Source: Nitrospirota bacterium
GTDB lineage: Bacteria > Nitrospirota > Nitrospiria > 2-01-FULL-66-17
Length of the DNA: 64,000 bases
Assembly (NCBI GenBank): GCA_040757335.1
Contig: JBFLXB010000001.1
Location: 248,001-312,000, forward strand
Direction: 5' to 3'
Shown here one piece after another: positions 6,684 to 46,502 of the stretch. Under the pieces are notes generated by a model that did no database searches, had not been told where the DNA came from, and worked only from the letters and a program-made list of their open reading frames with translations. Position numbers and translations under genes: made by a program. Positions within the stretch are counted from its first letter, which is position 1. Each line of letters starts with the position of its first letter.

Positions 6684-6942
6684 AGGCTGCTCAAAAAGCT
6701 CCCGCTGCAAGGCCGCAAGGGAGGAGGAAACCGGAGCGTACTGGGTCGTACGTGAGGATTTGCCGAGGACGGCGAACCGAGCGGTCGCGTCTTCGACGCG
6801 CATTCCATTCCGTGTCCCTGATGGGTCACGGTGCGGTTTCCGACGACCGAGAATCTGCACTGCGCCGCAGGCGCAGCATGGAATCGTCCGTCTCCCTGCA
6901 GATGGCGAAGCAGCGCAGCAGAGGGACTTTTTCAGCAGCCTG
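6684..6942. repeat. Inverted-repeat element, type A, long copy
   Basis: Element bounded by imperfect terminal inverted repeats: AGGCTGCTCAAAAAGC at the left and its complement (read back as CAGGCTGCTGAAAAAG) at the right. It shares the internal core GCGTACTGGGTCGTACGTGA with all other copies in the window. This copy is longer (about 259 bp) because the centre holds an extra stretch of about 130 bp absent from the copy at 17.5 kb. Its right end directly abuts the stop codon of the PQQ dehydrogenase gene. No protein of its own is apparent. Confidence 0.8.
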
Positions 6943-8130
6943 CTACGGGACGATTTTGAGGATCTCTCCCGCGTAGTCCACCACGTACAGTTCGCGCTGC
7001 TCGTCCTCACCGAACGCGGAAATGCTTCGGTCGCTTTCCAGTAGTTTTTGCTGTTCGATCACCGCGCCCCCGTCGTACCGGAGCCCCCAAATTCGTCCGT
7101 TGCCGAAGTCTCCGTAGACGTACACACCGCATAGCGAGGGGATGGCGCTCCCGCGGTAGACGCGGCCGCCGATCACGGTCGTGCCTTCCGAGCGGGGGTA
7201 ATCGATGATCGGAGGTTCGAACCCAGCCGGTTTGCACTTGGGGTTCACGCCCGGGGTGCAGATCGTTCCCTCCATCACGTTCCACCCGTAGTTGCCGCCT
7301 TTGGTGATGAGGTCGATCTCTTCGCGGTCCCTTTGGCCCACGTCGCCGGCGAAGAGGCGCCCAGTAACGGGATCGAACGCGAAGCGCCATGGGTTGCGAA
7401 GTCCAAACGCCCAGATCTCCCCCGCGGCCCCCTTGCGCTTTACGAACGGATTATCGGGTGGAACCCCGTAGGATTTTTTCCCTTGTGAGCGGTCCACATC
7501 GATGCGTAGGATCTTTCCCAGCATCGTTGACAGGTCTTGCCCATTGCCGTCCGGGTCATTGCCCGATCCTCCGTCGCCAAGGGCGATGTACAGCATGCCG
7601 TCGGAGCCGAACGCGATGTCCCCGCCGTTGTGGTTCGAATAGGGTTGCGGAACAGTCAACAGGATTCGCTCGATCCTCCCGTCGGCCTGATCCAGGTGGT
7701 CACTCACACGAAATTCCGAAATCGCGGTGTGCAATCCCCCTGTGCGCGTCGTGTAATTCACGAAAAAGCGGCCGTTTTCGGCGAAGTTGGGATGAAACGC
7801 CAACCCCAGCAGTCCAAGTTCGCCGCCAGACGCCACCCGGTCGCTGATGTCGAGAAAGGGCTTGGACCCGCTCTGTCCGGGTTTCCGGACCTGGATCGTT
7901 CCGCGCTGCTCGACGACGAAGAGCCGCCCTGATCCGTCACCCGTGGAATAGAGACCGACCGGGTTCTTGAAGCCGGAAAGGGCCGTGACCAGCCGGATCG
8001 TGGGCATGGGCGGAAAAGGATCGGGAGTGGCGCACGGGGCGGGCGCGGCGCCGGCTTGACCGGTGGCGAGCAGACCTAGGCCCGAGGCGGCGAGGCTCAG
8101 GGACAGACGGTGACGAAGCGAGCGGAGCAT
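6943..8130 (-). CDS. PQQ-dependent sugar (aldose) dehydrogenase, periplasmic
   Basis: 395-residue soluble PQQ-type glucose/sorbosone dehydrogenase-family beta-propeller. It begins with a signal peptide ending near AGAAPA, then shows family blocks such as DGSGRLFVVEQRG, GGELGLLGLAFHPNF, NHNGGDIAFGSDGMLYIALGDGG and WAFGLRNPWRFAFDP. It likely oxidises an aldose sugar in the periplasm using PQQ and Ca; the physiological substrate is unknown. The ATG at 8130 is preferred because a GAGGAAAGGA ribosome site precedes it. The stop codon abuts a repeat element. Confidence 0.88.
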   Translation of the reverse strand: MLRSLRHRLSLSLAASGLGLLATGQAGAAPAPCATPDPFPPMPTIRLVTALSGFKNPVGLYSTGDGSGRLFVVEQRGTIQVRKPGQSGSKPFLDISDRVASGGELGLLGLAFHPNFAENGRFFVNYTTRTGGLHTAISEFRVSDHLDQADGRIERILLTVPQPYSNHNGGDIAFGSDGMLYIALGDGGSGNDPDGNGQDLSTMLGKILRIDVDRSQGKKSYGVPPDNPFVKRKGAAGEIWAFGLRNPWRFAFDPVTGRLFAGDVGQRDREEIDLITKGGNYGWNVMEGTICTPGVNPKCKPAGFEPPIIDYPRSEGTTVIGGRVYRGSAIPSLCGVYVYGDFGNGRIWGLRYDGGAVIEQQKLLESDRSISAFGEDEQRELYVVDYAGEILKIVP

Positions 8131-8270
8131 GGCGTAATCCTTTCCTCTGGCGGATGGACGATGTTTGAGGCCCGATGATGGCAGAGTTTTTCGCCGAGGT
8201 CTAGTCCCCATCCCCCGCGGATGGCGGAAAAACGGGCTTTGCAGGGAGGCCGAGGTTACGGGGGGGGTGG

Positions 8271-9338
8271 TTACCGTGGGAGCGACGGGGGGATGACGAC
8301 CACCGGGTCGCTGCTGAGCGAACGGATGAACGCGAGGAGATCGGCCTTGTCTTGCTCGCTCAACAGATCGAGCGGGGTGATGAGGGGATGGCGATGGGCC
8401 GGGCGGCCTTCGGCTTTGACGTAGAAATCCAGCACCTCTTCCAACGTCGCGAACATGCCGTTGTGCATGTAGGGCGGGCTATCGGCAACCTGCCGAAGCG
8501 ACGGAGTCCGGAACGTCTCCATATCCTCGTCGTTCAGAGTCACGGCGAACCGGCCTGAGTCCTCGGGCATGTTGTCGCGCTTCGGGAGCCCCAAGGCGTG
8601 AAACTGGTTGTCCGTGAAATTGGGTCCGTGGTGGCACGTCACGCACTTGGCCCGCTCGTTGAAGATGCGCACCCCGCGTTTGGCCGAATCCGACAGAGCC
8701 GACTCGTCGCCTGCCATGAACCGGTCCCACGGCGAATGGTTCGAGATGATCGTGCGTTCAAAGGCTGCGATCGCTTGTGCGATGCCGTCCACGCCGACGC
8801 CGGTTCCGAACACCGCCCGAAAAGCGGCGACGTAGCCGGGCACGGCGTTGAGTTCGGCGACGAGCTGCCGGAGGTCCTCGCCCATCTCGATCGGATTTTG
8901 GATCGGTTCCAAGACCTGCTGTTCCAGTGACGAGGCTCGTCCGTCCCAAAATAAGTGCGTGCGATAGGCGACGTTATAGAGCGATGGGACGTTGCGCGTT
9001 CCGAACTGCCCTCGGATGCCTTTCGCAACCCGTTGGCCGTTGGAGAATCCCAATGCGGGCACGTGGCAGGACGCACACGCGATCGTATTGTCCTTGGACA
9101 ACCGCGGGTCGAAAAATAGGGTCTTGCCCAGCTCGATTTTCGCCGGGGTCTGGAGGTTGAGCGCCGGTGTCGGCGGCGCGAGCAGGGGATAGAGATGAAA
9201 CGGCGGATTGGGCAGCGTGTCGTACAGGGTCTGCGGCGGGTAGGCGTCGGATTTCTTGGGCCGGGCCGCTTCGAGTGGCGATGCCGCGAGCATTGTAGTG
9301 TGAAGCACGAAAACTATGGCGACAAGCCGAGTGATCAT
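8271..9338 (-). CDS. Di-haem cytochrome c peroxidase / MauG-family protein
   Basis: 355-residue exported protein with two c-type haem motifs, CASCH (88-92) and CVTCH (232-236), in the arrangement of bacterial di-haem peroxidases. Other family blocks are LGKTLFFDPRLS, GTRNVPSLYN and TPSLRQVADSPPYMHNG. A signal peptide (residues 1 to about 24) follows the ATG at 9338. Upstream codons in the same frame come from the adjacent repeat element and are not part of the gene. It reduces hydrogen peroxide or oxidises a protein partner in the periplasm. Only 15 bp separate the start from the repeat, so any promoter must lie within or beyond that element. Confidence 0.9.
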   Translation of the reverse strand: MITRLVAIVFVLHTTMLAASPLEAARPKKSDAYPPQTLYDTLPNPPFHLYPLLAPPTPALNLQTPAKIELGKTLFFDPRLSKDNTIACASCHVPALGFSNGQRVAKGIRGQFGTRNVPSLYNVAYRTHLFWDGRASSLEQQVLEPIQNPIEMGEDLRQLVAELNAVPGYVAAFRAVFGTGVGVDGIAQAIAAFERTIISNHSPWDRFMAGDESALSDSAKRGVRIFNERAKCVTCHHGPNFTDNQFHALGLPKRDNMPEDSGRFAVTLNDEDMETFRTPSLRQVADSPPYMHNGMFATLEEVLDFYVKAEGRPAHRHPLITPLDLLSEQDKADLLAFIRSLSSDPVVVIPPSLPR

Positions 9339-9353
9339 CGAGTGATCGTCATA

Positions 9354-9476
9354 AGCCCGGTCAGGAATGCGCCAGATGCAAGGCGGAGCGAGCACCGCAC
9401 CGCAGCGTACTGGGTGCGTACGTGAGGAGCGGATGCGCAGCGACAACGCCGCAGATGGCCATTCATGGACGGGCTC
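9354..9476. repeat. Inverted-repeat element, type B
   Basis: About 123 bp. Left end AGCCCGGTCAGGAATGCG and right end complement GAGCCCGTCCATGAATGG form terminal inverted repeats. The core GCGTACTGGGTGCGTACG and the GATGCAAGGCGGAGCGAG block are shared with the other copies. The right end lies immediately against the cnoX stop codon, with no intervening base. Confidence 0.82.
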
Positions 9477-10340
9477 TTAGTAAATGAGGCGAGCGAGCTT
9501 TTCGCGGTACTCCTCGGCGAGCGGACTTCGCGCGCCGACCACTTCAAAGATCTGGAGCATCATCTTGCGCGGCGCATCGTCCTTGTAGTGGCGGTCCTTC
9601 TTGAGGATGGCCAGATACGCGTCGAGCGCGTCGCGGTAGCGTTGGGCGGCGGCGTACCGAGCCGCGAGTTGAAATCGCGATTCCAGGTCCGCGGGATCGC
9701 GGTTGACCGCGACTTCCAATTCCGCGAGGGATGGACCGGCGCCTCCGACGCTCGCCAGATCGATCCGTGCTTTAAGCGCTACCACGTCGTCGCGAAGCTG
9801 GAGCGGACCCGGCATGCGGTCGTAGGCAGCCGTCGCGTCGGCCCACCGCGCCAAGTGCACCAGCACGCGCAGTTCGCCGACGGCTGCGGCCGCGTGGTGC
9901 GGATCCACGGCCAGGGCTTCACGGTAGGCGTTGAGCGCCTCCTCCCATTGCTTCTCGACCTCCAGCGCCGCTCCTGCGTCGGCCAGACCATCCGCCTTGG
10001 TGGGGACCAACCGTTGGATGAATTGCCGGATGGCCGATTCCGGCAGCGCGCCCACGAATTCATTGACGACCTTTCCCTTCCAGAACGCTTTCACGTTGGG
10101 GATGGTCTGGATGCGGTAGCGCTGGGCCAGGTTCAGATTGCGATCCGTGTCGACCTTGGCGAGCAGCGCCTTGCCCTCGAAGTCCTCGACGACCTCCTCG
10201 AGGATCGGCCCCAGATACCGGCACGGTCCGCACCACTCGGCCCAGAAGTCCACCAACACCGGCACCTGGCGCGAACGCGCAATCACGCGCTCCTCGAACG
10301 TCGCCTCATCCGCGTCAAAGATCCAATCAGTGTCCGTCAT
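9477..10340 (-). CDS. cnoX: Thioredoxin-like chaperedoxin with TPR tail (CnoX/YbbN family)
   Basis: 287-residue cytoplasmic protein with an N-terminal thioredoxin fold (residues 1 to about 115), active-site motif WCGPC with Cys37 and Cys40, followed by helical tetratricopeptide-like repeats typical of YbbN. E. coli CnoX protects substrates from over-oxidation and hands them to GroEL or DnaK. That enzyme has an SxxC motif, whereas this one keeps both cysteines and may also act as a reductase, as in several other bacterial CnoX proteins. A repeat element begins directly after the stop. Confidence 0.87.
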   Translation of the reverse strand: MTDTDWIFDADEATFEERVIARSRQVPVLVDFWAEWCGPCRYLGPILEEVVEDFEGKALLAKVDTDRNLNLAQRYRIQTIPNVKAFWKGKVVNEFVGALPESAIRQFIQRLVPTKADGLADAGAALEVEKQWEEALNAYREALAVDPHHAAAAVGELRVLVHLARWADATAAYDRMPGPLQLRDDVVALKARIDLASVGGAGPSLAELEVAVNRDPADLESRFQLAARYAAAQRYRDALDAYLAILKKDRHYKDDAPRKMMLQIFEVVGARSPLAEEYREKLARLIY

Positions 10341-10416
10341 AAGGGCAGCAGTCTAAATCAACTTAGTGATGAGCGGCAAGGAGGAAATCCGAAGTAACGC
10401 AGTTCCCGCGAAAGCG

Positions 10417-10647
10417 GAGGCTGGTGAGGAACGCGTCAGACGCCCCCTCGGGGACTTCCGGCATTTCGATTGCTGAAGGTGGGTCGCAAGGCGGAGCGAG
10501 CGCCCGCACCGCAGCGTACTGGGTCGTACGTGAGGCGAGTGGCGCCACGAAGAAGTGGCGCCAAGCCACGAGCGCCGCCGAGACGGTGAGGCGGCCGTGA
10601 TACCTTGAGAGCGACAACGCCGCGGATGACCGTTCATCGCCAGCCTC
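10417..10647. repeat. Inverted-repeat element, type B, long composite copy
   Basis: About 231 bp with ends GAGGCTGGTGAGGAACG and, in complement, GAGGCTGGCGATGAACG. Inside is the family core plus an extra palindromic block around GTGGCGCCACGAAGAAGTGG that recurs only in the copy at 46.3 kb. The right end overlaps the copA stop codon by one base. Confidence 0.8.
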
Positions 10648-13013
10648 TACAAAGGGGAACGGCGCAGGCGTAAGGAGTTGGCAATCACCGACACCGAACT
10701 AAAACTCATCGCCGCACTCGCCCAAATCGGGCTGATCAGCACGCCGACAAAGGGGTAGAGCAATCCCGCCGCCACGGGGACGCCCACCGTGTTGTACACG
10801 AACGCAAAGAACAGGTTCTGTCGGATCGTACGCATGGTGGCGCGGCTCAGATGGCGCGCTCGCGCGATGGCCCGCAGATCGCCTTTGACCAGCGTGACGC
10901 CGGCACTCTGCATCGCCACGTCGGTTCCAGCGCCCATCGCGATCCCCACGTGCGCCTGCGCCAGGGCCGGGGCGTCGTTGACGCCGTCTCCGGCCATGGC
11001 CACGATCCGGCCCTCGGCCTGAAGCGCTTTGACGATGTCCAACTTGTGCTCCGGAAGGACCTCCCACCGGACGTCGTCGAGGCCCAAGCGAGCGGCAACC
11101 GCCTGCGCCGTGACCCGCGAATCACCCGTGACCATCACGAGACGCAACCCTTCGCGCCGCAACTGCTGGATGGCTTCGGGCGTGGTGGATTTGATCGGGT
11201 CGGCGACCGCGAACAGGCCCGCGGGCTTGCCGTCCACGCCGAGCCAGACCACGGTGTCCCCGTCACGGCGCCGAGCCTCGGCCCGCGGCAAGAGTTCACT
11301 CAACGCGATGCCTTGCGAGTCCATGTACGCCTGGGTTCCGAGCACGACGCGTTTCCCGTCCACCGTTCCCATCACCCCGCGGCCGGTCGCGGACGCGAAT
11401 CCGTCCACTTTGGAGAGCCGAAGTCCTTTCGCTGCCGCGCCCGCCACGATCGCCGCGGCCAGCGGGTGTTCGCTCGCCTGTTCCAAGCTGGCCGCGATTC
11501 GCAGGATGTCGTCGGCGCCGAAGCCCGGCCCCGCGTCAACGTCCGTCAGTTTGGCTTTTCCTTCGGTCAACGTCCCGGTCTTGTCCACGAGGAGCGTGTC
11601 CACGCGTTCGAGCGTTTCCAAGGCTTCGGCGTTTTTGATCAGGATCCCGGCCTCCGCTCCGCGACCGACCCCCACCATCACGGCCATGGGCGTGGCGAGC
11701 CCTAAGGCACAGGGACACGCGATGATCAACACGGCCACGGCATTGACAAGGGCCAGCGCGAGCCGCGGCTCAGGGCCCCACACCGCCCACGCGAGGAAGG
11801 CCAAGACGGCGACCACCACCACCGCGGGGACGAAGTACGCGGCGACCGTGTCGGCGAGGCGTTGAATCGGCGCGCGGCTGCGCTGTGCCTCGCTGACCAT
11901 GCGGACAATCTGGGCGAGCAGTGTCTCCGTGCCGACTCGTTCCGCCCGCATGATCAGGGTTCCGGTCCCGTTGATGGTGCCGCCGATCACGCGGTCGTCT
12001 GCGTGTTTCTCCACCGGGATGGGCTCGCCCGAGATCATGGACTCGTCGACGGACGTGTATCCCTCGATCACGACGCCGTCCACCGGAATCTTTTCGCCGG
12101 GACGGACGCGCAGAAGGTCGTCGCGCTGCACGTGTTCGATCGGGATGCCTTGTTCGCGCCCGTCGCGTACGAGGCGCGCGGTCTTGGGCGCGAGGCCCAG
12201 CAGCGCCCGGATCGCCGCGCCGGTGCGGCCGCGCGCGCGAAGCTCCAGCACCTGCCCGAGCAGCACCAGGGCCGTGATCACCACCGCGGTGTCGAAGTAA
12301 GGCTCGACCGCGTCGTGTATTCGAAATCCCTGGGGGAAGAATCCAGGCGCGATGGTGGCGGCCACACTGTACGCATAGGCGGCGCCCACGCCCACCGCGA
12401 TCAGCGTGAACATATTGAGGTTGAGGGTGATGATCGATCTCCAGCCTCGCTCGAAAAACGGCCACCCCGCCCAGAGCACCACGGGTGTGGCCAGGACCAG
12501 TTGAATCCAGTTCGACGCGGTCATCGGGAACAGGTCGCGCACGGCAGGACCCATCACCAGGTCGGCCATGGCCAAGACGAACACCGGGAAGCCAACGACC
12601 ACACCGACCGAGAACCGGCGCGTCATGTCCACGAGTTCGGGATTTGGGCCTTCCTCGACCTGCGCGATCCGCGGCTCGAGCGCCATCCCGCACTTGGGAC
12701 ACGGCCCGGGCCGGTCGCTGATAACCTCCGGGTCCATCGGGCAGATGTATTCGACCTTCGCGCCGGGGGGCGCGACCGGCGGTGGGGCAGGTGCAGGGTG
12801 ATGACGCGCGGGCGGCGGGCCGATGGTTACCAGCTGCGGTTGCTCCTGCGGCGCGAGATACCGAGCCGGGTCAGCCTTGAACCGCTCGCGGCAGCCGGGG
12901 TTGCAGAAATAGTACGTCGTGCCCGCGTGGACGTGCGTCCCGCCGCGCGGGTTGGCCGTGTCCACAGTCATGCCACAGACCGGGTCGATGGCGGTTGTCG
13001 GAGATGCGGTCAT
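10647..13013 (-). CDS. copA: Copper-translocating P-type ATPase with YHS and heavy-metal-binding N-terminal domains
   Basis: 788-residue P1B-type ATPase. Residues about 9-55 form a YHS domain (DPVCGM then FCNPGC). Residues about 88-114 are a short heavy-metal-binding domain (YICPMDPEV then [10 protein letters not shown]). No classic GMTCxxC HMA domain is present. The pump core has the A-domain SGEPIPVEK motif, intramembrane CPC at 433-435, the phosphorylated Asp477 in DKTGTLTEG, and [13 protein letters not shown]. The CPC site and architecture match Cu(+) export ATPases. The ATG at 13013 lacks a strong ribosome site. Copper export fits the multicopper oxidase encoded at 36 kb, although the two are not linked. 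Confidence 0.93.
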
Positions 13014-13088
13014 TTCATTTCAATTCAATCAAAAATGGATTCGGTCGCAGCCTATCGCATCGACCCTCCCTAATCAAGCCGATGGGGT

Positions 13089-13118: not shown

Positions 13119-13170
13119 TTTTCGCGCAACTCGCTAGGCTCCCCCTGATCACTCACACCGAGGGGACGCC

Positions 13171-14542: not shown

Positions 14543-14548
14543 AACACC

Positions 14549-17459: not shown

Positions 17460-17494
17460 CATCTCAGACTGTCGAGGAGCTCGATAGCACTTGC

Positions 17495-17614
17495 AGGCTG
17501 CTCAAAACGTTCCAGCTGCCAGGCCGCAGCAAGGAGGAACCCGCAGCGTACTGGTTCGTACGTGAGGAGTTCCGACGAGCGAGAACGCAGCAGCTGGACG
17601 TTTTCAGCAGCCTG
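17495..17614. repeat. Inverted-repeat element, type A, short copy
   Basis: 120 bp with the best-preserved ends in the window: CAGGCTGCTCAAAACGTTCC on the left and, in complement, CAGGCTGCTGAAAACGTCC on the right, extending to CAGCTG on both sides (about 24 bp). The centre has the shared GCGTACTGGTTCGTACGTGAG core. The right end lies 6 bp from the bolA stop codon. Confidence 0.85.
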
Positions 17615-17620: not shown

Positions 17621-17908
17621 TCAGGTCGGCCATTCGCTGGGCGAGTACGCGCGTACGCTCAGGGCATGAATCGCGCTCTGCATTTCTTCCCGCAGGATCT
17701 GAAACACGAGGCGTCGGCGATCCAGGGCGTTGAGCCCCTCAAACTTGGACGAGACCACGTCGACCGCGAAGTGTCCGCCGCCCATCCGCGCTCCCGTGTG
17801 TCCGGCGTGCTTCCAGGATTCGTCTTCAACCGCCACGTGCACCGCATCCAGGTCTTTCAGGAGTTTTTGCTCGATCGTCGTTTTCGTCGTGTGTGATCGC
17901 GTCGTCAT
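17621..17908 (-). CDS. bolA: BolA family protein
   Basis: 95 residues covering a complete BolA domain: the KLLKDLDAVHVAVEDESWKH strand-helix entry, a GGGHFAVDVVSSKFEGLNALDRRRLVFQIL core with the conserved FxGxxxxxRxRxV-type segment, and the closing IHALSVRAYSPSEW motif. BolA proteins work with monothiol glutaredoxins in Fe-S cluster trafficking. The conserved His in the GGGHF segment is a typical cluster ligand position. The ATG at 17908 is used because upstream codons lie outside the domain; no strong ribosome site is seen. Confidence 0.9.
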   Translation of the reverse strand: MTTRSHTTKTTIEQKLLKDLDAVHVAVEDESWKHAGHTGARMGGGHFAVDVVSSKFEGLNALDRRRLVFQILREEMQSAIHALSVRAYSPSEWPT

Positions 17909-20593: not shown

Positions 20594-22291
20594 ATGAGCG
20601 ACCGCCGACCCGTCCCGACAGAGCCTGATCCCCAGCGTCCACCCTCGCCTGCGACGTCCGAGGACTCCCTGTTGGGCCTGATCGATCGGTGTCTCGCGTC
20701 GTTGTCCGAGGGCGATCCCAAACAGAAATGGCTCTATCGCATTCGGCACCTGGTTTTGCAGGAGGAACGCACGCGCCGAGAGAGCGACGCGGATCTCCAG
20801 AAGCTCAGGGGCGTGGTCGACAAGCTGACCGCGCCCGCCAACCGCGTGGGAGTCGTCGTGGCGGTGCCGGGACGTGACGTGGTTCGGCTCGTGGTGGGTG
20901 GGGCCGAGTACTGGGCCGGCGTGGACCCGCGGCTTGACCCCGGTGAGCTCAAGGTCGGGGTGCAGGTTCTCGTGAACGAAGCGTTCGCCGTGATCAAGGT
21001 GCTCGGCTACGAAACCGGCGGCCCGGTGTTGAGGGTCGTCGACAGTTTGCCGGACGGGAGGATCCGCATCGGGCAGGAACCGGGCGGGCAGGCGGCGTTC
21101 ATTATCCGAAGTGCGGACCTGGTCGGGACCGAGATCCAGCCGGGTGACGAGGTGCGGGTGGATTCGAGCCACCGCGTGGCCATCGAGCGACTGGAGTCCA
21201 AGGGAAGTCGTGACCGACTCTTGGACGAGGTTCCCGACGTCACGTGGGAGGATATCGGAGGCCAGAAGGACGCGATCGCCGCGATCCGCAAGTCGATCGA
21301 AGCGCCGCTCCTCCACGCGAAAACGTTTGCACGTTTCCGGTTCAAACCGCCGAAGGGCCTCCTGCTGTACGGACCGCCGGGCTGCGGCAAGACGCTGATC
21401 GGGAAAGCCACCGCGGCCAGCCTTGCGGCGTCCCTGGCCGGTGACGGACCGCCGGTCCGCGGCGCGTTTCTGCACGTCAAAGGCCCCGAGATCCTGAACA
21501 TGTGGCTGGGCGAATCGGAACGGCTCGTGCGCGACCTGTTTGCCCAGGCGCGAAGTCGGCGCACCGCAGGGTTTTTGCCCGTGATCTTCATCGATGAAGC
21601 CGAGTCGATCCTGGGGACTCGCCGCTCCATGCGCGCGCTCAACATCGCGAACACCCTGGTCCCGATGTTTTGCGCGGAGATGGACGGCGTGACGTCGCTG
21701 CGAGACGTCGTGATCATCCTGGCGTCGAACCGTCCCGACCTCATCGATCCCGCGATCCTGCGGCCGGGACGCATTGACCGGAAAATCAAAGTGGGGCGGC
21801 CCAGCCGCGAGGACGCGACCGAGATCATCCGGATCCATCTCGGCGACGTGCCGCTCGACCCCTCGCTCCTCGGAGACCACGGCGGGGACGAGGCGGCGGC
21901 ACGCGCGGCGCTCGTCACGGCCGCGATCGACCGGCTGTTCGCGCGGGACGACGGCAACCGCGTGTTGGCGGTGCGCCTGCGCAGCGGCCTCCGGGAGACG
22001 ATGTACCGGGGCGACGTGATCAGCGGGGCGATCCTGGCGGCGGTGGCGCAACGCGCCAAGGAGCGCGCGATCGAACGCGCACTGCAGCAAGGCGGCGAGC
22101 AAGGAATCGGCATCGAAGACCTCCGCGATGCGATCGACGCGGAGTTTTCTCAAGGAGAAATTCTCCCGCCCGACGACGCGGCGGAAGAATGGCTCAAGGT
22201 GCTGGACCACCATCCTCAGCAGGTGGTGGGCGTGGCGTCCTTCCGAGGCGGGCGGGAGTCAGGCGAGCGCCCGGTCCACGTCGTCATCTAG
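20594..22291 (+). CDS. mpa: Proteasome-associated AAA+ ATPase (Mpa/ARC)
   Basis: 565-residue hexameric ring ATPase that recognises UBact-tagged proteins and threads them into the 20S core. It has an N-terminal helical segment (about 30-80), then OB-type beta segments (about 80-200), and one AAA domain with GPPGCGKT at 260-267, IFIDEAES with Asp334 and Glu335, and the SRH-type PAILRPGRIDRKIKVGRP. The C terminus reads RPVHVVI and lacks the penultimate Tyr of the usual HbYX or QYL proteasome-docking tails. It is first in a + strand cluster with dop, UBact, prcB, prcA and pafA; a repeat element begins 3 bp after the stop. Confidence 0.93.
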   Translation: MSDRRPVPTEPDPQRPPSPATSEDSLLGLIDRCLASLSEGDPKQKWLYRIRHLVLQEERTRRESDADLQKLRGVVDKLTAPANRVGVVVAVPGRDVVRLVVGGAEYWAGVDPRLDPGELKVGVQVLVNEAFAVIKVLGYETGGPVLRVVDSLPDGRIRIGQEPGGQAAFIIRSADLVGTEIQPGDEVRVDSSHRVAIERLESKGSRDRLLDEVPDVTWEDIGGQKDAIAAIRKSIEAPLLHAKTFARFRFKPPKGLLLYGPPGCGKTLIGKATAASLAASLAGDGPPVRGAFLHVKGPEILNMWLGESERLVRDLFAQARSRRTAGFLPVIFIDEAESILGTRRSMRALNIANTLVPMFCAEMDGVTSLRDVVIILASNRPDLIDPAILRPGRIDRKIKVGRPSREDATEIIRIHLGDVPLDPSLLGDHGGDEAAARAALVTAAIDRLFARDDGNRVLAVRLRSGLRETMYRGDVISGAILAAVAQRAKERAIERALQQGGEQGIGIEDLRDAIDAEFSQGEILPPDDAAEEWLKVLDHHPQQVVGVASFRGGRESGERPVHVVI

Positions 22292-22294
22292 GGC

Positions 22295-22418
22295 GAGCCT
22301 GTCCATGAAGGGTCATCTGCTGCGTTGCCGCTGCGCGTCCGGTGCTCACGTACACACTGAGTACGCTCCGCTCCGGTGCTCGCGGCGCCTTGCATCTGAC
22401 GCCTTCCTGAACAGGCTC
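22295..22418. repeat. Inverted-repeat element, type B, within the proteasome operon
   Basis: 124 bp, with left end GAGCCTGTCCATGAAGGG and right end complement GAGCCTGTTCAGGAAGG. The core TCACGTACACACTGAGTACG and the GGCGCCTTGCATCTGACG block are conserved. It begins 3 bp after the mpa stop and ends 38 bp before dop. Confidence 0.85.
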
Positions 22419-22456
22419 GATTAGGACCAGGCCGCAGTGGAGACGAATAGCCTCGC

Positions 22457-24028
22457 GTGAGCGCTCTCAACTCACAGAAGATTCCCTACCCGACAGTCGG
22501 TCTGATCGGGTTGGAAACCGAGTACGGGATCACTCGCGATCACGCGTCCTCCATCGACCACGTGAGCGAGTCGATGGCGTTGGTGCGCGCGTACCTGGAC
22601 GGGCCGTTCCAACGGCGGTGGAGTTATCGGGAAGAGGATCCCCACCGCGACGCGCGGGGGTTCCGCGTCGAGCGACTGGAGCAAGACGAGGAGGAGGACG
22701 AGTTTGCCGCGCGCGACGCCGCTCGCGCCTTGTCCTTTACCGACGTGAAGAGCGATTTGGTCCTGACGAACGGAGCCAGGTTCTACAACGACCACACCCA
22801 CCCGGAATACTCCACGCCGGAGTGCCGATCACTCGCGGACCTGGTGGCTCACGATCGGGCCGGCGAGTTGATCGTGTGGGAAGCAGCCTGCCGCAGAAAC
22901 CGGCGCCTCGCCGCCGCCGGCCAGCCCGGTGACGTCTCCGTGTTCAAGAACAATACGGACTTTCACGGCCACAGCTACGGATGCCACGACAACTATTTGC
23001 TGCCGCGAAGCGTATCGTTCGAGCGCCTCGCAAAGGGCCTGATCCCGTTTCTCATCTCCCGCCAGATCGTGGCCGGGTCCGGCAAGATGGGGATCGAAGT
23101 ACCGACCGGCCCCGTTCGCGGCCGGTACCAGATTTCTCAACGCGCCGACTTCATCGAGACCGATCTCAGCGTCAACACCATGCACAACCGCCCCGTGGTC
23201 AACACCCGCGACGAACCGCACGCCGATCCCGCCCGCTTCCGCCGGCTCCACTTGATCCTGGGGGACGCCAACCTGTCAGAGTTCGCCACCGCGCTCAAGG
23301 TCGGCACCACCCGGGCTGTGCTCGAACTGATCACGCGCGGCGGTGCACCCGACGTCGCGGTCGAGCAACCCGCGCTGGCCCTGAAGACGATATCGCAGGA
23401 CCCGGACCTGAAGGCGAGCGTTCGGCTCCGGGACGGCCGACGGTTGACCGCGCTGGATCTCCAGTCGATCTACCTCGATGCGGCGCGCGCCGGTTTGGAG
23501 GGGGCGGATCCCGAGATGGACTGGGTGTTGCGCGAATGGTCGGCGACGCTGGCGGCGCTGGCCGGTGATCAGGCTTCGCTCCGCGGGCGCGTGGACTGGA
23601 TCACCAAGCGGTGGCTGTTGGAGACGTTCACCGAGGACGCCAGGATCGCGTGGGATGATCCGTGGTTGGAGAGTCTCGACCTGGCGTATCATCATCTCGA
23701 CCCCGCGCGGGGTTTGTTTCGGGGCTTGGAGGCCGACGGAGCCGCGGGTCGGGTCTCGACCCCCGAGGCCGTGGAGCACGCGGTTCGGCACGCTCCGGCC
23801 GATACTCGCGCGAGCATCAGGGAATTGTGTATGACCCGGTTCGGGGAGGAGGTCGATTCGATGCAATGGGCCATGATCGGGGCCAAAGACGGCACCGCGC
23901 TGGATTTGGGGTCACTGGTCGAGCCGGAGGGGGTTGCCCGCCTCGCGCGGATCCTCCGGGATGCCCCGAGTCTGTCAGCCGGGATCAGAGCCTGGCGAGA
24001 AGGAATCACACCACGAGGTCACGCATGA
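22457..24028 (+). CDS. dop: Deamidase/depupylase-type enzyme acting on UBact
   Basis: 523-residue carboxylate-amine ligase-fold enzyme. The ATP/Mg motif is GLETEYG (Glu20, Glu22). The insertion after residue about 55, rich in Glu and Asp, corresponds to the Dop-specific loop and separates it from PafA. The nucleophilic Asp lies in FYNDHTHPEYSTPEC (Asp112). Dop converts the C-terminal Gln of Pup to Glu and removes Pup from substrates; here the partner is the UBact gene whose ATG overlaps the dop stop. GTG start, weak ribosome site. Confidence 0.92.
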   Translation: MSALNSQKIPYPTVGLIGLETEYGITRDHASSIDHVSESMALVRAYLDGPFQRRWSYREEDPHRDARGFRVERLEQDEEEDEFAARDAARALSFTDVKSDLVLTNGARFYNDHTHPEYSTPECRSLADLVAHDRAGELIVWEAACRRNRRLAAAGQPGDVSVFKNNTDFHGHSYGCHDNYLLPRSVSFERLAKGLIPFLISRQIVAGSGKMGIEVPTGPVRGRYQISQRADFIETDLSVNTMHNRPVVNTRDEPHADPARFRRLHLILGDANLSEFATALKVGTTRAVLELITRGGAPDVAVEQPALALKTISQDPDLKASVRLRDGRRLTALDLQSIYLDAARAGLEGADPEMDWVLREWSATLAALAGDQASLRGRVDWITKRWLLETFTEDARIAWDDPWLESLDLAYHHLDPARGLFRGLEADGAAGRVSTPEAVEHAVRHAPADTRASIRELCMTRFGEEVDSMQWAMIGAKDGTALDLGSLVEPEGVARLARILRDAPSLSAGIRAWREGITPRGHA

Positions 24029-24207
24029 TGACTATCGATTTGGAACGCCGCGAACGCCCGATCGATCCGGCGCCCGCTCCGCGAAAAGAGGATCCTGGCC
24101 CCCGGCGACCGGATGTCGGGTCGCCGGAGCGGGAGAACCTGCTCAAGCGGATGCGGCAGGTGGATCCGAAGCAGGCGGAGCGGTATCGCCAACGCACGGG
24201 CCAGTAG
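24025..24207 (+). CDS. UBact: ubiquitin-like protein modifier of Gram-negative proteasomes
   Basis: 60 residues, highly charged and proline-rich, without Cys or hydrophobic core, as expected for an intrinsically disordered Pup-like tag. The end RYRQRTGQ matches the UBact C-terminal pattern (Arg-rich, then Gly and Gln/Glu). The terminal Gln means Dop must deamidate it before PafA can join its gamma-carboxylate to a lysine. A run NLLKRMRQVDPKQAERY near the C terminus is a likely helix for binding Mpa. It starts with ATGATG overlapping the dop stop and sits before prcB, the same place as pup in Actinobacteria. Confidence 0.92.
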   Translation: MMTIDLERRERPIDPAPAPRKEDPGPRRPDVGSPERENLLKRMRQVDPKQAERYRQRTGQ

Positions 24208-24210
24208 TCC

Positions 24211-24331
24211 CGGCCGCCGATAAGCGGTCATCTGCGGCGTTGCCGCTGCGCTTCCGGTCCTCACGTACGCATACAGTACGCTGCGGTCCGGTTCTCGCGG
24301 CGCCTTGCATCTGACCACTTCTTGGCGGCCG
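24211..24331. repeat. Inverted-repeat element, type B, variant ends
   Basis: 121 bp. The central part (GGTCATCTGCGGCGTTGCCG, CTCACGTACGCATACAGTACG, GGCGCCTTGCATCTGACC) matches the family, but the tips are CGGCCGCCGATAAGCGG and, in complement, CGGCCGCCAAGAAGTGG, so both ends changed together. It starts 3 bp after the UBact stop and ends 30 bp before prcB. Confidence 0.82.
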
Positions 24332-24361
24332 CTTGCTTCGCAAGAGGAGGCGAAAAAAGAA

Positions 24362-25138
24362 ATGACGGGGGATTTTGTCGAGCTGTTGAAGGCGAGCGGG
24401 TATACGTGGATGCCTCAAGTGGGGGCCGAGCACGTGGATCGGGAGACAATCGCGCACGGCACCACCGTGCTTGCGATGAAGTATCGGGACGGGGTGTTGG
24501 TGGCCGGGGATCGGCGGGCTACGGCGGGTAATGTCGTGATGCACGACCGGACCGACAAGGTCTTGGATCTGGATCGGTACAGCGTGCTCGCCATCGCGGG
24601 GGTGCCGGCCACCGCGTTCGAGATGGCTCGGGTGCTGGATCATTCGTTCAAGTATTACCGCCGCAGCCAGCTCCAGGATCTGAGCCTGGAGGGCAAACTG
24701 CGCGCGCTCTCCAAACTGCTCCGGGACAACATTCCGATGGCGGTCCAGGGCATCGGTGCCGTGGCTCCCATCTTCGCGGGCTACGACGTGCAGAGCCGGA
24801 CGGCGAAGATCTTTTTTTACGACATCCTCGGCGCGGAGTTCGAAGGCGTGGAATACGCCGCGTCCGGTTCCGGCTCGCCCACGATCCGCGGCATCCTGCA
24901 CTACGTCCATCGTTGGGGCCCCCAACGCCTTGCCGCGATGGCGGAGGACGACGCCATCGTGCTCGCGCTGCGCTTGCTCAACAGCGCCGCCGAGTTTGAT
25001 TCGGCGACCGGGGGCGTCGACATCGCCGACGGGTTGTACCCGGTGGTCAAACTGATCACCGCGGAGGGGACCACCGTCGTGGCCTCGGAACGATTGGGCC
25101 GCCTGTACGAGGCCCATGTGGGGGGGCGGGGTGTTTGA
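24362..25138 (+). CDS. prcB: 20S proteasome beta subunit (catalytic)
   Basis: 258 residues. The propeptide (1-33) should be cut before Thr34 in AHGTTVLAMKYRDG, exposing the N-terminal nucleophile. GDRRAT and the lysine in HDRTDKV correspond to the catalytic Asp and Lys of beta subunits. The ATG at 24362 is chosen because GAGGAGG lies 12-18 bp upstream and because earlier in-frame codons come from the preceding repeat element. Two rings of seven PrcB form the proteolytic chamber. The stop overlaps prcA. Confidence 0.93.
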   Translation: MTGDFVELLKASGYTWMPQVGAEHVDRETIAHGTTVLAMKYRDGVLVAGDRRATAGNVVMHDRTDKVLDLDRYSVLAIAGVPATAFEMARVLDHSFKYYRRSQLQDLSLEGKLRALSKLLRDNIPMAVQGIGAVAPIFAGYDVQSRTAKIFFYDILGAEFEGVEYAASGSGSPTIRGILHYVHRWGPQRLAAMAEDDAIVLALRLLNSAAEFDSATGGVDIADGLYPVVKLITAEGTTVVASERLGRLYEAHVGGRGV

Positions 25139-25907
25139 AGAGCCGTATCGGTGGACCGAGGCCGTCGGCAACCGACGAGCCTACGTCGACGCCCAGCTCG
25201 CGCAGGGGAGTCCGGTGGTCGCGCTCTCCTATCGCGACGGGGTCGTACTCGCCACCTTTCAACGAGGCATCCCCAAGTTGTATGAGGTGTACGATCGCAT
25301 CGCCTTGGGCGGCGTGGGGCATCCCGCGGATCTGGAGGCGTTGCGCGCCGCCGCGCTCGATATGGCGCACGTGGAGGGGTTCAACCGCTCACCCGCCGAC
25401 GTGACCGCGATGCGTCTGATCAAGTACGGGCTTGCGCCGCTCGCCAAACGCGCGTACGAGGAACTGTTTCGCGCCCCGTTGATCGCAAGAGTGCTGCTCG
25501 CCCAAGTGGGGGCCCGATGGGGCCAGGACGTGCTGATGACGTTGGACTACGACGGAACCTTCGAAGAGACGGTTGGTCGCGCCGTGCTCGCGGCTTCGGA
25601 CCCTTCCCGCCGCGCGATGCTCGCGCATCTCGACGGGGCCGGACCGTGGCAGGAGGCCCCGCTTGCGGCGGCGCTCCCCGCGGCACTCCGCGCCTGGGCG
25701 GTCGGGGAGCTCGTTCACGCGGCTCCGGAGGCGCCTGCGCCGGATGATGCACGGTTGACCCAACACCTCCAGGCGTGCGGCGTCGATCGTCGAATCGAGG
25801 TGGCGGTGCTGGACAGGGGAGCCGCCGGGACGTCGAAGTACCGCTCTCTTACGGCCAACGAGGTCTCCGAGTTCCTGGTGCCATGGCTCGGCGCCGCCGT
25901 ACGCTGA
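25131..25907 (+). CDS. prcA: 20S proteasome alpha subunit
   Basis: About 258 residues with the alpha-type fold: an N-terminal helix (EEPYRWTEAVGNRRAYVDAQLAQG), SPVVALSYRDGVVLATF, YDRIALGGVGHPADLEALRAAALDMA, and a C-terminal IEVAVLDR strand as in mycobacterial PrcA. No N-terminal Thr nucleophile, as expected for the structural outer ring that gates the chamber and docks Mpa. The GTG at 25131 overlaps the prcB stop by 8 bp and follows a G-rich ribosome site; ATG 25116 is an alternative. Confidence 0.9.
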   Translation: MFEEPYRWTEAVGNRRAYVDAQLAQGSPVVALSYRDGVVLATFQRGIPKLYEVYDRIALGGVGHPADLEALRAAALDMAHVEGFNRSPADVTAMRLIKYGLAPLAKRAYEELFRAPLIARVLLAQVGARWGQDVLMTLDYDGTFEETVGRAVLAASDPSRRAMLAHLDGAGPWQEAPLAAALPAALRAWAVGELVHAAPEAPAPDDARLTQHLQACGVDRRIEVAVLDRGAAGTSKYRSLTANEVSEFLVPWLGAAVR

Positions 25908-25909
25908 GA

Positions 25910-25928
25910 GAGCCTGTCCATGAATGGG
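25910..25928. repeat. Solo end of a type B element
   Basis: GAGCCTGTCCATGAATGGG, identical in pattern to the left end of the full type B copies, with no core or right end following. It begins 2 bp after the prcA stop, the same position relative to a stop codon as the complete copies, so it is either a deletion remnant or a bare target-like site. Confidence 0.7.
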
Positions 25929-25957
25929 ATACCAGGACACACTTCTAAGGCGCCACT

Positions 25958-27373
25958 GTGCTGGACCGGATCGTCGGCATCGAAACCGAGTACGGGCTGC
26001 TGAGCCACGCCGATCAGCGCTTGCGAGCGCCCGAACGGATCGCCCACCGGCTGAGGGACTTCATCTTTCACGAAAAGCGCCTCGGCCTCATCGACCTTCA
26101 CCATCGCGATTACGACGAACCCGTGGGCAACGGAGGGTTCCTGCTCAACGCCGGCCGCTTGTACGTGGACATGGGGCACCTGGAATACGCCGGTCCCGAG
26201 TGCGCCACGCTGGCCGACGCCGTGGCGTACGAGCGGGCCGGCGACGTGATCGTGCAGCGGGCGTTGGAAGAGGTGGGGCTCGCCGAGCGCGCGTCGATCA
26301 TCAAGAACAACATCGACCACGAGACCGACGCGACGTTCGGGTCGCACGAGAACTACCTCGTGCGTCGCTCCTTTCCGTTTACGCGTGAGGGCCTGGATCA
26401 ACTCGTGCCGTTTTTGGTCACGCGCCAACTCTTCGCCGGCGCGGGTCGGGTCGGGGCCGCGCGCGTGCCCTCCGGGTTGGTGCGGATCAGCGATGAAGTG
26501 GAGCGGCCCGACGCGACCTTTCAGATTTCGCAGCGGTCCGACCATATCGTCAACGAATTTTTCCAGTGGGTGCAGGGCAACCGGGCCATCATCAACACGC
26601 GCGACGAGCCCCTCGCCGACCCGGAACGGTTCCGCCGCCTGCACCTCCTGCTGGGAGACTCCAATCTGTGCGAGGTCGCCATCGCGCTGAAAATCGGCAC
26701 CACGTGTCTGGTCCTCCAGTTGATCGAGGACGGCGTGAGCTTCGCGGATTTGACGTTGCCCGACCCGGTCGGCTCGTTGCACGCGATTTCTCGCGACGCG
26801 TCGCGCCGGTGGCTCGTGGAGTTGAACGACGGGCGGGTGATCTCGGCCATCGACATTCAAGAGCGGTACGCCGAGGCGGCGCGTCGCTATTACGGGCGCG
26901 ATGAGGAGATGGACTGGGTCATCGACGAATGGCAACGCGTGCTTACCGATCTCCGGGGTGACTACGAAAAGCTCGTCGGACGGCTCGACTGGGCGTCCAA
27001 GTTGTGGATGCTGGAATCGTTTCGAGAGGCCGAGGGCCTCGACTGGGACGCTCCCTGGCTCAAGAGTCTCGATCTGGAGTATCACAACCTGCAGACGGCG
27101 CAGGGGTTGTACTTCGCGTTGTCGGAGGAAGGACGGGTTCACCGCTACATCACCGACGACGCCGCGGAGTTGGCGGTGGCCCACCCGCCGCGTAACACCC
27201 GTGCGTTCGGACGGGGTGAGGCCATCAAACACCTGATGGCCGGCGACGGACGATACGTGATCACGTGGTCGGGGCTCATGGTGGAAGGGCGGCCGCCGCT
27301 GCGGATGCCGGACCCGTTTCTGACCTACAGTGGCGCCGTCCTGGATCATTTCACGCAGCATAATCCCCGTTGA
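25958..27373 (+). CDS. pafA: UBact/Pup--protein ligase
   Basis: 471-residue PafA-type ligase. Motifs: VGIETEYGL (Glu9, Glu11), nucleophile region LYVDMGHLEYAGPEC with Asp71, FGSHENYLVRRSFPF, TRDEPLADPERFRRLHLLLGDSNLCE, and EYHNLQ near the C-terminal domain. It lacks the acidic loop that marks Dop. It activates the C-terminal Glu of UBact with ATP and forms an isopeptide bond to target lysines. GTG start. The stop overlaps the next start (TGATG). Confidence 0.93.
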   Translation: MLDRIVGIETEYGLLSHADQRLRAPERIAHRLRDFIFHEKRLGLIDLHHRDYDEPVGNGGFLLNAGRLYVDMGHLEYAGPECATLADAVAYERAGDVIVQRALEEVGLAERASIIKNNIDHETDATFGSHENYLVRRSFPFTREGLDQLVPFLVTRQLFAGAGRVGAARVPSGLVRISDEVERPDATFQISQRSDHIVNEFFQWVQGNRAIINTRDEPLADPERFRRLHLLLGDSNLCEVAIALKIGTTCLVLQLIEDGVSFADLTLPDPVGSLHAISRDASRRWLVELNDGRVISAIDIQERYAEAARRYYGRDEEMDWVIDEWQRVLTDLRGDYEKLVGRLDWASKLWMLESFREAEGLDWDAPWLKSLDLEYHNLQTAQGLYFALSEEGRVHRYITDDAAELAVAHPPRNTRAFGRGEAIKHLMAGDGRYVITWSGLMVEGRPPLRMPDPFLTYSGAVLDHFTQHNPR

Positions 27374-31990: not shown

Positions 31991-32003
31991 TTTCCAGGTG
32001 ACC

Positions 32004-32771
32004 ATGTCCCCCTACCTCCAAGAAGTGACCGCCATGACGCGGCGTTGGTTCCAGCGCTTCCGGCGCGAGCCCCTGAGCATTGTCTTCGGGCTGACCCAGC
32101 CGGTGTTGTGGCTCGTGTTGTTCGGAAACCTGTTCAAGAACGCCACGGCCATCACGGGGGTACAAGCGCCGAGCTACATTGCGTTCATGACGGGCGGCGT
32201 GGTCGTGATGACCGTGCTCAACAGCGGGCTGGCCGGCGGAATCGAGATGCTGTTCGACAAGGAAAACGGTTTTCTGGAGCGGTTAATGGCCGCGCCGATC
32301 AAGCGCAGCGCGCTGATCATCAGCCGGTTCCTGTTCGTGACCATTATCACCGGCCTGCAGGCGTTGATGATTCTCGCCATGGCGTTTCTCTTCGGCGTGC
32401 ACCCCGCCACCGGGTGGCTCGGCGTCGCATTGATCCTGGTGATCGGCATGATGCTCGGCATCGGATTCACCGCGATCTCGTTGGGTCTGGCCTTCTCGAT
32501 GAAGGGGCACGGCGGGTTTTTTTCGGTGATGGGGTTCATCACGCTGCCGCTGATTTTCATGAGCAGCGCCCTTGCGCCGCTGGAAATCATGCCGGCGTGG
32601 CTCGCGTGGATCGCTAGGCTCAACCCCATGACGTACGCGATCGACGCGGTGCGCGGGTTGATCCTGACCGGCTGGCACATCCACATCGTCAAAGTGCTGG
32701 TCATCCTGGCGGTGTTCGACGCGGTGTGTCTTGCCTGGAGTAACCGCATCCTCCTTCGGGGCATGAGATAG
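32004..32771 (+). CDS. ABC-2 type exporter permease
   Basis: 255 residues with about six membrane segments and the ABC-2 pattern: N-terminal FRREPLSIVFGLTQPVLWLVLFGNLF, a cytoplasmic KENGFLERLMAAPIKRSALIISRF loop, and the late PLIFMSSALAPLEIMPAWLAWIARLNPMTYAIDAVRGLI signature. It pairs with the ATPase upstream to export a drug-like or lipid substrate that cannot be predicted. ATG 32004 has AGGTGA upstream; GTG 31998 is possible. The stop codon TAG overlaps the beginning of a repeat element. Confidence 0.9.
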   Translation: MSPYLQEVTAMTRRWFQRFRREPLSIVFGLTQPVLWLVLFGNLFKNATAITGVQAPSYIAFMTGGVVVMTVLNSGLAGGIEMLFDKENGFLERLMAAPIKRSALIISRFLFVTIITGLQALMILAMAFLFGVHPATGWLGVALILVIGMMLGIGFTAISLGLAFSMKGHGGFFSVMGFITLPLIFMSSALAPLEIMPAWLAWIARLNPMTYAIDAVRGLILTGWHIHIVKVLVILAVFDAVCLAWSNRILLRGMR

Positions 32772-32893
32772 CCTGTCCATGAGCGGTCATCTGCTGCGTT
32801 CTCGGGCGCGCGGCAATCCTCACGTACGACACAGTACGCTCCGGTTGCCGCGCGCCCTGCGGCCTTGCATCTGACGCGCTCCTGAACAGGCTC
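32769..32893. repeat. Inverted-repeat element, type B
   Basis: 125 bp, with ends TAGCCTGTCCATGAGCGG and, in complement, GAGCCTGTTCAGGAGCG. The core CTCACGTACGACACAGTACG is conserved, while the flanking arms carry a different, mutually complementary pair (CGGGCGCGCGGCAA with TTGCCGCGCGCCC), i.e. compensatory change. The permease stop codon lies inside the first bases of the element. Confidence 0.85.
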
Positions 32894-41035: not shown

Positions 41036-41036
41036 T

Positions 41037-42962: not shown

Positions 42963-42999
42963 ACACGCGGTGCATCGTGAGTCCGCAGCGTACGTCGCG

Positions 43000-43785: not shown

Positions 43786-43857
43786 GCCACGATGGCATTT
43801 CAACCATTGGACCGCGTCCGGCGGGACCATCCGTCCCCGCCTGAAGACAGGAGCGTG

Positions 43858-44670: not shown

Positions 44671-44739
44671 GCCGTCGGAGCGGGGCGGATTGTCGGACGG
44701 TTTCGTCGAACTCGTCGCGCGCGTCCATGCGGACCTCGC

Positions 44740-44769
44740 TTGACCCACCACCCACTCGCGGTCTATTCT
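44740..44769 (+). promoter_or_regulatory. Sigma70-like promoter for the carboxylase genes
   Basis: TTGACC (44740-44745), 18-bp spacer, TATTCT (44764-44769), ending 28 bp before the biotin carboxylase start. Confidence 0.5.
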
Positions 44770-44797
44770 GCGTAGTCGTCTAACAACGCCCGACACG

Positions 44798-46252
44798 ATG
44801 CCGAACCGTCAGAAACGACCGATCAACAAGTTGTTCATTGCCAACCGCGGCGAGATTGCGTGCCGGACCATCCGCACGTGTATGGAAATGGGCATCACGT
44901 CGGTGGTCGGGTACTCCGACTGCGACGCGCTCTCGTACCACGTCCGAATGGCCGATCAAGCCGTGCACCTCGGCCCCTCGCCGGCCAAACTGAGTTACCT
45001 CGACATCGGCAAGATCATCGACGCGGCGCGGGCGACCGGGTGCGACGCGGTCTTCCCCGGCTACGGGTTCCTGTCCGAGAACCCGGACCTTGCGCGCGCG
45101 TGCCGCGCCGCGGGGCTGATCTTTGTGGGGCCCAGCGCGGACGTTATCGCGTCGATGGGCGACAAAATCGCGACCAAGGACACTCTGGCCGCGGCCAAGG
45201 TGCCCGTGATCCCGGGCCTCAAGCGGGTGACGTCCGCGCAACAGATCGTGGACTTCGGCCACAAAGTCGGCTGGCCGATCATGATCAAAGCCATTGCCGG
45301 CGGCGGCGGGCGGGGGATGGTACGGGTGGATACGCCGCAGCAGGCGCCCAAAGCGCTCGAGCACGCCGTCTCCATCGCGGGGAAGCTGTTTGCGACGGAG
45401 GGGGTTTACGCGGAGAAATACATCCGCAACGCGCGCCACATCGAGTTCCAGTTCATGGCGGACCAACACGGCTCGGTGATCCACCTCGGCGAGCGCGAGT
45501 GTTCGATCCAGCGCCGGCATCAGAAGTTGGTGGAGGAGGCTCCGTCCACGTTCCTGAACGACGAGCTGCGCCGGGAGATGGGCGGGGTCGTGGTCAAGGC
45601 CATGAAGGAGATCGGGTACGTGACCGCGGGAACGCTCGAATTTCTGGTGGATCCCGAAATGCGGTACTACGCGATCGAGGTCAATCCCCGCATCCAGGTC
45701 GAGCACACGGTGACGGAAATGGTCGCGGGGCTGGACCTCATCCGACTGATGATCCGGACCGCGGCCGGCCAGCCGCTGACCGTGCGCCAGGAGGACATCG
45801 TCCTGCGCAGCCACGCGATCCAGTGCCGGGTCAACGCCGAAGACCCCAAGAACCACTTCGCGCCCTCGTTCGGTACAGTGACCTATCTGCGCCAGGTCAG
45901 CGGCCCGTTCGTGCGCGCGGACACGGGGATTTACCAGGGCTGGGAGATCCCGCCGTATTACGACTCGCTCATCACCAAGATCTGCTCTCTGGCGAAGGAT
46001 CGGACCACGGCCATCGAGCGGATGTGGCGCGCGCTCTGCGAGTACGAGATCTGGGGGGTCAAGACCACCATCCCGCTCCTCAAGAAGATCATGGTGCACC
46101 CGGACTTCGTGGCCGGCCGGTTCGACACCGACTTTATCGACAAACACCTCGACGAACTGTTGGATTACGTGGAGGAGGAGGACGAGCTGCTCAGGCTGGC
46201 GCGGTTTGTCGCGGAAATCACGGCAATAGGGAGGAATCCCTATTGCCGCTGA
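44798..46252 (+). CDS. pycA: Biotin carboxylase subunit of a two-part carboxylase
   Basis: 484 residues of the AccC/PycA ATP-grasp family: KLFIANRGEIACRTIRTC, VFPGYGFLSENP, the glycine-rich ATP loop KAIAGGGGRGMVRV, HIEFQFMAD, GERECSIQRRHQKLVEEAPS, and EVNPRIQVEHTVTE. It carboxylates biotin with bicarbonate and ATP. The carboxyltransferase with its biotin domain is encoded 286 bp downstream, so the pair forms a pyruvate-carboxylase-like (or 2-oxoglutarate-carboxylase-like) enzyme. The stop directly abuts a repeat element. Confidence 0.92.
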   Translation: MPNRQKRPINKLFIANRGEIACRTIRTCMEMGITSVVGYSDCDALSYHVRMADQAVHLGPSPAKLSYLDIGKIIDAARATGCDAVFPGYGFLSENPDLARACRAAGLIFVGPSADVIASMGDKIATKDTLAAAKVPVIPGLKRVTSAQQIVDFGHKVGWPIMIKAIAGGGGRGMVRVDTPQQAPKALEHAVSIAGKLFATEGVYAEKYIRNARHIEFQFMADQHGSVIHLGERECSIQRRHQKLVEEAPSTFLNDELRREMGGVVVKAMKEIGYVTAGTLEFLVDPEMRYYAIEVNPRIQVEHTVTEMVAGLDLIRLMIRTAAGQPLTVRQEDIVLRSHAIQCRVNAEDPKNHFAPSFGTVTYLRQVSGPFVRADTGIYQGWEIPPYYDSLITKICSLAKDRTTAIERMWRALCEYEIWGVKTTIPLLKKIMVHPDFVAGRFDTDFIDKHLDELLDYVEEEDELLRLARFVAEITAIGRNPYCR

Positions 46253-46502
46253 GAGCCTGTCCATGAACCTGAACGCGCCGAGGGCGCGAACTCTAATCGA
46301 CCCGAAGGGACACTACAGGTGGCGAAGCAACGGTCATCTGCTGCGTTGCCGCTCTCAAGATGCCACGGCCGCCGCACCGTCTCGGCGGCGCTCCTGGCTT
46401 GGCGCCACTTCTTCGTGGCGCCACTCGCCTCACGTACGCAACCAGTACGCTCCGCTCCGGTGCTCGCGGCGCCTTGCATCTGACGCGTTCCCGAACAGGC
46501 TC
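46253..46502. repeat. Inverted-repeat element, type B, long composite copy inside the carboxylase operon
   Basis: 250 bp, with ends GAGCCTGTCCATGAAC and, in complement, GAGCCTGTTCGGGAACG. It contains the family core (CTCACGTACGCAACCAGTAC) plus the palindromic block GGCGCCACTTCTTCGTGGCG shared with the copy at 10.5 kb, and a unique insert of about 60 bp near the left end. The left end touches the pycA stop codon. Confidence 0.83.

Follow-up and report, generated by a model that had tools for sequence, protein, structure and literature searches.

Copies of the repeat in the window

The window, by which we mean the whole 64,000-nucleotide stretch analysed (positions 248,001 to 312,000 of contig JBFLXB010000001.1 of a Nitrospirota bacterium), contains eight full copies and one solo left end of a palindromic repeat. 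A reading of the letters alone (the sequence-only reading) had placed all nine correctly, and we refined their ends through the complementarity of the two arms:

6684–6942, minus strand: long copy, 259 nt, with B-type ends CAGGCTGCTGAAAA..TTTTTGAGCAGCCT; left foot immediately after the stop of the GSDH/PQQ dehydrogenase gene (6943–8007, minus)
9354–9475, minus strand: A-type copy, 122 nt; left foot 1 nt past the TAA of a cnoX-like gene (9477–10340, minus)
10418–10646, minus strand: copy of 229 nt containing inserted hairpin modules; left foot immediately after the TAG of copA (10647–12971, minus)
17494–17614, minus strand: B-type copy, 121 nt; 6 nt past the stop of bolA (17621–17908, minus)
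22296–22417, plus strand: A-type copy, 122 nt; 4 nt past the stop of mpa (20672–22291, plus)
24211–24331, plus strand: copy with diverged, covarying ends CGGCCGCC..GGCGGCCG; 3 nt past the TAG of UBact (24205–24207)
25911–25927, plus strand: solo left end AGCCTGTCCATGAATGG; 3 nt past the TGA of a proteasome subunit gene (25116–25907, plus)
32770–32892, plus strand: A-type copy, 123 nt; its own first bases AG complete the TAG stop of an ABC-2 permease gene (31998–32771, plus)
46254–46501, plus strand: A-type copy, 248 nt, containing two inserted modules; left foot 1 nt past the TGA that ends the biotin carboxylase gene pycA (44798–46252, plus)

At all nine sites the end that bears AGCC.. or CAGG.. 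is −2 to +6 nt away from the named gene's stop, as had been noticed from the sequence. In the orientation of CTCACGTAC this is always the left end, which the sequence-only reading had not pointed out. Pfam matches agree with the gene identities originally proposed (GSDH, thioredoxin plus TPR (cnoX-like), E1-E2 ATPase, BolA, AAA/Mpa, UBact, proteasome, ABC-2 permease and biotin carboxylase). The UBact–proteasome locus (window 20672–27373; mpa, UBact and two proteasome subunits) holds two elements and the solo end inside 4 kb. With 8 copies in 40 kb, the region is denser than the genome as a whole, which averages approximately 1 exact-core copy per 30 kb.

Size, fold and spread of the family

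A search of the 3.56-Mb genome containing the window with the core pattern CTCACGTACN{3,6}AGTACGC finds 119 exact-core copies, and the reversed-pattern control finds 0. At least 39 additional copies with an altered core (core-less copies) were recovered through an inner motif, giving a family of more than 150 members in this genome. The copy statistics refer to 100 of the 119 exact-core copies, analysed with their flanks, and leave aside the remaining 19. Genes were called by a home-made hexamer model trained on the same genome, which misses small genes such as UBact, and element ends were placed by the complementarity of both arms, with 23 set by hand. None of the 100 copies spans a called gene, and the family is extragenic. 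In a brief look for a longer form in which two ends enclose a gene, we read the 39 core-less copies over about 400 nt starting at the left end; in 12 of them that range held no right-end motif.

Basic copies fold as one long imperfect hairpin of about 121 nt (−59 to −73 kcal/mol; z −3.9 to −7.5). Seventy of the 100 copies measure 118–126 nt and the others range up to 356 nt; roughly one copy in three contains inserted hairpin modules. The outer arms are paired in 992 of 1,200 cells, and exchanging arms between copies lowers this number to 576 ± 29. All four Watson–Crick types occur at several arm positions, and positions 8 and 11 are mostly mismatched. The best-conserved parts are internal (the core and inner motifs), whereas the outermost 20 bp vary yet stay paired. 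In old orthologous copies (pairs picked by joint fold) 22 both-side and 7 one-side changes preserve pairing. This retention of pairing by compensatory change across genera supports a constraint on the folded form, and part of the covariation could come from palindrome repair.

The right end does not resemble an intrinsic terminator in having a T run, as T makes up only 11–12% of the first four positions beyond it. At 21 of 99 right ends the element is directly followed by another, locus-specific hairpin, and most of these copies are stop-adjacent (p = 0.04). The right flanks of 11 copies (for example, window 46502–46512) share the tail CCGCTTTCGCGG, in some cases with a second GGACAGGCTCC behind it, which suggests that the present element may derive from a longer ancestral unit. 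Separately, about a third of the core-less copies have their core interrupted at the apex by the palindrome GTAGGGGCGTATTGCAATACGCCCCTAC, itself a GTAG-tagged hairpin (L329, L330, L333, L335, L340, L348, L351, L353, L355, L356 and L361).

The core is patchily distributed across the class. One genome of genus g25 has 59 copies, genomes of genus g32 in family f12 have up to 23 each, others have a few, and the core is absent from nearly all sampled genomes of family f2. Genomes of f12 (L192–L202 and L205–L207) have a related subtype whose ends read GGGGCTGTTGAAAAAAGCCGCCAGCGGCGTT and whose core reads CTCACGTACTGGAAGTACGC. Rfam covariance models match no copy, even with E up to 1, and plasmid records searched with the repeat give no match. 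The family was likewise not found in the open-access full-text literature, in which sequence fragments matched only unrelated papers among the matches listed.

The left end and its relation to stop codons

The left neighbour is transcribed toward the element, on the same strand, in 71 of the 100 copies. In 65 of these 71 the left end lies −3 to +10 nt from the same-strand stop, with a mode of 0/+1 (stops inside the element at −13 are counted apart), and one of the remainder is the UBact copy, whose small gene was missed by the caller. About a third of the genome's copies are not at a stop. The generalization that all copies sit at stop codons is thus too broad, and nine of nine in the window is a favourable sample relative to the whole genome. 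That the placement is non-random does hold genome-wide: 58 of 66 copies are stop-adjacent when 16.5 of 66 are expected from uniform placement in the same intergenic regions, and none of 20,000 such simulations exceeds 31. Copies are therefore closer to stops than random intergenic positions are.

Core-less copies, which were chosen without reference to the core, have 24 of 31 left ends within −3 to +10 nt of a same-strand stop and a further 5 that stop inside the element at −13 (29 of 31 between −13 and +7 overall). Pooling 196 copies, the reading frame runs into the element and ends at the element's own TGA in 11. Stop adjacency is also seen in our comparison relatives, which are draft genomes of another genus. 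In G001 (88% complete; 74 copies) 37 of 40 copies lie between −1 and +9 of a stop, 19 of them at exactly +1, and copies in G002 behave like those in G001 and in the window's genome.

The two ends of the element are not equivalent in this respect. Between convergent genes, left ends coincide with a stop in 16 of 19 cases and right ends in 4 of 19, and among antisense copies only 1 of 23 right ends is within 10 nt of the facing stop. Between co-directional genes, sense copies outnumber antisense copies 51 to 23 (p = 0.0015). The link to stops is strong but not universal genome-wide, and it involves the left end only.

The left junction has the consensus CTAGG–AGCC, in which the dash marks the boundary. 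TAG occupies positions −4 to −2 at 53 of 149 A-type ends, preceded by C in 32, G in 12, T in 6 and A in 3, and it is found there in 14 of 33 A-type copies that have no stop present. CTAGG or TAG thus occurs at junctions lacking a stop as well, so that a TAG-like sequence is part either of the element, as a tag, or of its target. TAG stops are over-used next to elements (42 of 62, against 121 of 372), with TAA and TGA stops together making up the other 20 of 62. We find no target duplication at 3–9 nt in any of 100 copies, and at 2 nt the 3 cases compare with 4.4 expected by chance.

The CTAGG junction in copies without a stop, the excess of TAG stops, the lack of target duplication and the involvement of the left end only would fit a target-site preference, under which the mobilizing enzyme inserts 3′ of a TAG/TRRG sequence, much as IS200/IS605-like enzymes do beside a short target that they leave unduplicated, and stops are simply TAGs where insertion is harmless. 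The numbers speak against such a preference acting alone. Gene stops make up only 8–11% of intergenic TAG, CTAG or TAGG sites (8% for TAGG), whereas 33 of 48 TAGG copies (69%) are at stops. A model that places copies by motif predicts 20.4 of 66 at stops, compared with the 58 observed, and the stop bias persists in promoter-free convergent regions. We consider this explanation rather unlikely. A TAG-type motif had been entertained as a full account and was set aside as quantitatively short (20.4 against 58 of 66; approximately 8–10% stop coincidence), as was a TAG plus hairpin foot, which coincides with stops at 4 of 54 sites, is no better a predictor and leaves the preference unaccounted for. 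Motif preference accounts for only part of the stop link, and something stop- or orientation-specific remains.

Where relatives lack the element, the proteins concerned in most cases terminate at the same position as in the window's genome. For most copies we therefore reject the possibility that the element creates the stop by truncating a gene; it has usually been added behind a pre-existing stop. This shared end point, the use of TAA and TGA stops as well as TAG, and a stop preference greater than that of every DNA target tested (TAG, TAGG, TRRG and TAG plus hairpin) would also fit insertion or copying that senses the reading frame, tied to the mRNA or to the end of translation, perhaps by way of an RNA intermediate, such that the 5′ foot is set exactly behind the stop. 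Against a mechanism of this type count the third of copies that are off stops and the 23 of 100 that lie between genes transcribed in the opposite direction. It is further disfavoured in that we know of no bacterial element whose insertion is coupled to the reading frame, and we judge it highly improbable.

Because targeting by the tested DNA motifs falls short, our preferred reading is that copies at stops would be retained there as 3′-end hairpins. Precision at the stop shows no significant trend with age, for which divergence of the ends served as proxy, and this does not favour retention. The sequence-only reading had offered a choice between stop targeting and a 3′-end module. The placement on which it was founded is real, but the two options do not separate cleanly, and the CTAGG/TAG motif at the junction enters as a third component.

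History, mobility and relation to known palindromic repeats

The element is present or absent at the same gene end among related genomes. Where the window has its UBact copy, G001 (L105) shows a clean empty site, and most of the genes tested in G001 and G002 have no element at the corresponding stop. At about a dozen sites an element lies between the same two genes in the window's genome and in G001 or G002, where by our own estimate roughly one to three shared sites would be expected. The A-type copies at shared sites (mpa, L068 and L088) differ in subtype between genomes; the mpa stop in a relative (L105/L257), for instance, carries an element of another subtype. These differences suggest independent arrival or replacement, whereas the diverged-end copies L054, L072, L073, L077 and L094, and in part L059, look vertically inherited, and it is on these that the 22 both-side and 7 one-side changes were counted. 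Comparison of the genomes shows gain or loss over evolutionary time with no target duplication, and we infer that this reflects transposition by a hairpin-acting enzyme.

Gain or loss between relatives, together with the absence of any transposase inside the element, agrees with the original proposal that the repeat would be moved by an enzyme encoded elsewhere. No matching RAYT was found among the Y1_Tnp genes examined. The window's genome has eight Y1_Tnp matches, four of them on contig C34, and two of the C34 genes have 20–26-bp inverted repeats that overlap their own TAG stop. RAYT-type enzymes with such repeats have been published (PMC3733652). The genome's own Y1 (RAYT/TIRYT) enzymes on C34 might on these grounds be what moves the element. 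However, the C34 repeats GGGGACAGGCTACTTTT and AAAAGTAGCCTGTCCCC have only the 10 nt TAGCCTGTCC in common with it, and none of the Y1_Tnp loci examined in the window's genome, G001, G002 and other drafts is flanked by element ends. Moreover, the only Y1 gene found in G001, a genome with many copies, has GGGGTCAG repeats, and the Y1 repeats of G158, which has no element in our sample, are of GGGGACAG type. We regard C34 as an improbable source, the link through TAGCCTGTCC being too weak to be kept as anything other than a rival. The C34 locus itself (L185; 10000–29999) is a cluster of Y1 transposase genes with GGGGACAGGCTACTTTT repeats, one copy of which has an early stop.

The element shares several features with GTAG-tagged REPs, whose ends often supply TAG stops (Di Nocera et al. 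2013, PMC3733652). Both are extragenic palindromes near gene 3′ ends (PMC3733652; Nunvar et al. 2010, PMC2817692), and part of the element's copies have, as those REPs do, a TAG-containing foot at one end that often provides or overlaps the stop. Some published REPs begin GTAGGAGC, much like NTAGGAGCC of the element. The element is longer (about 121–356 nt compared with 20–40), the base before its TAG is more commonly C than the G of the GTAG foot (32:12 of 53), and, whereas GTAG-tagged REPs flank a RAYT gene with the same repeat, we found no such arrangement at the Y1 loci examined. Its stop adjacency is also much tighter than that of Escherichia coli REPs, about 11% of which are within 15 nt of a stop (PMC12306157). 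A hairpin in that position can act on ribosomes and mRNA, according to Liang et al. 2015 as cited in PMC12306157.

Like REPINs (Bertels and Rainey 2011, PMC3116915), the element is extragenic, has no transposase of its own and consists of inverted halves that form one long hairpin with compensatory changes. In REPINs both ends are conserved, which is the reverse of the pattern of conserved internal parts and variable ends seen here. The modular build, with inserted hairpin segments and in some copies a nested GTAGGGGCG palindrome, resembles that of BIMEs (mosaic REP clusters), although BIMEs alternate short REPs and the element is a single unit with a fixed core. MITEs of DDE transposons are likewise short, non-coding and present in many copies with inverted ends. 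The element differs from them in lacking target duplication at 2–9 nt and in having ends that covary and are not conserved. The absent target duplication and the CTAGG junction of part of the copies agree with, and do not prove, mobilization of the IS200/IS605 (Y1) type. REPIN/BIME-like palindromic repeats are known as a class, within which this looks like a new family.

Together, these observations suggest a non-coding, non-autonomous palindromic repeat of REPIN/BIME type that folds into a long imperfect hairpin. Its left foot lies beside a TAG-like sequence, mostly the stop of a gene already ending there, and the element was probably inserted at such sites without duplication. A transposase that works on single-stranded hairpins would mobilize it in trans, and copies at stops would then be kept as 3′-end hairpins. 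We hold this composite explanation with moderate confidence; the copies off stops and the conservation pattern opposite to that of REPINs count against it.

Why bacterial palindromic repeats adjoin gene ends, whether through targeting, tolerance or function, is an old open question. The family described here, from relatives of the nitrite-oxidizing Nitrospira, is an unusually sharp case of it: the distance between one oriented end and the stop has its mode at 0 to +1 nt, adjacency is several times as frequent as the motif predicts, and the pattern recurs in two genera. With comparable stops in element-free relatives and old orthologous copies that keep their pairing, this family would be one in which targeting and retention are separable.
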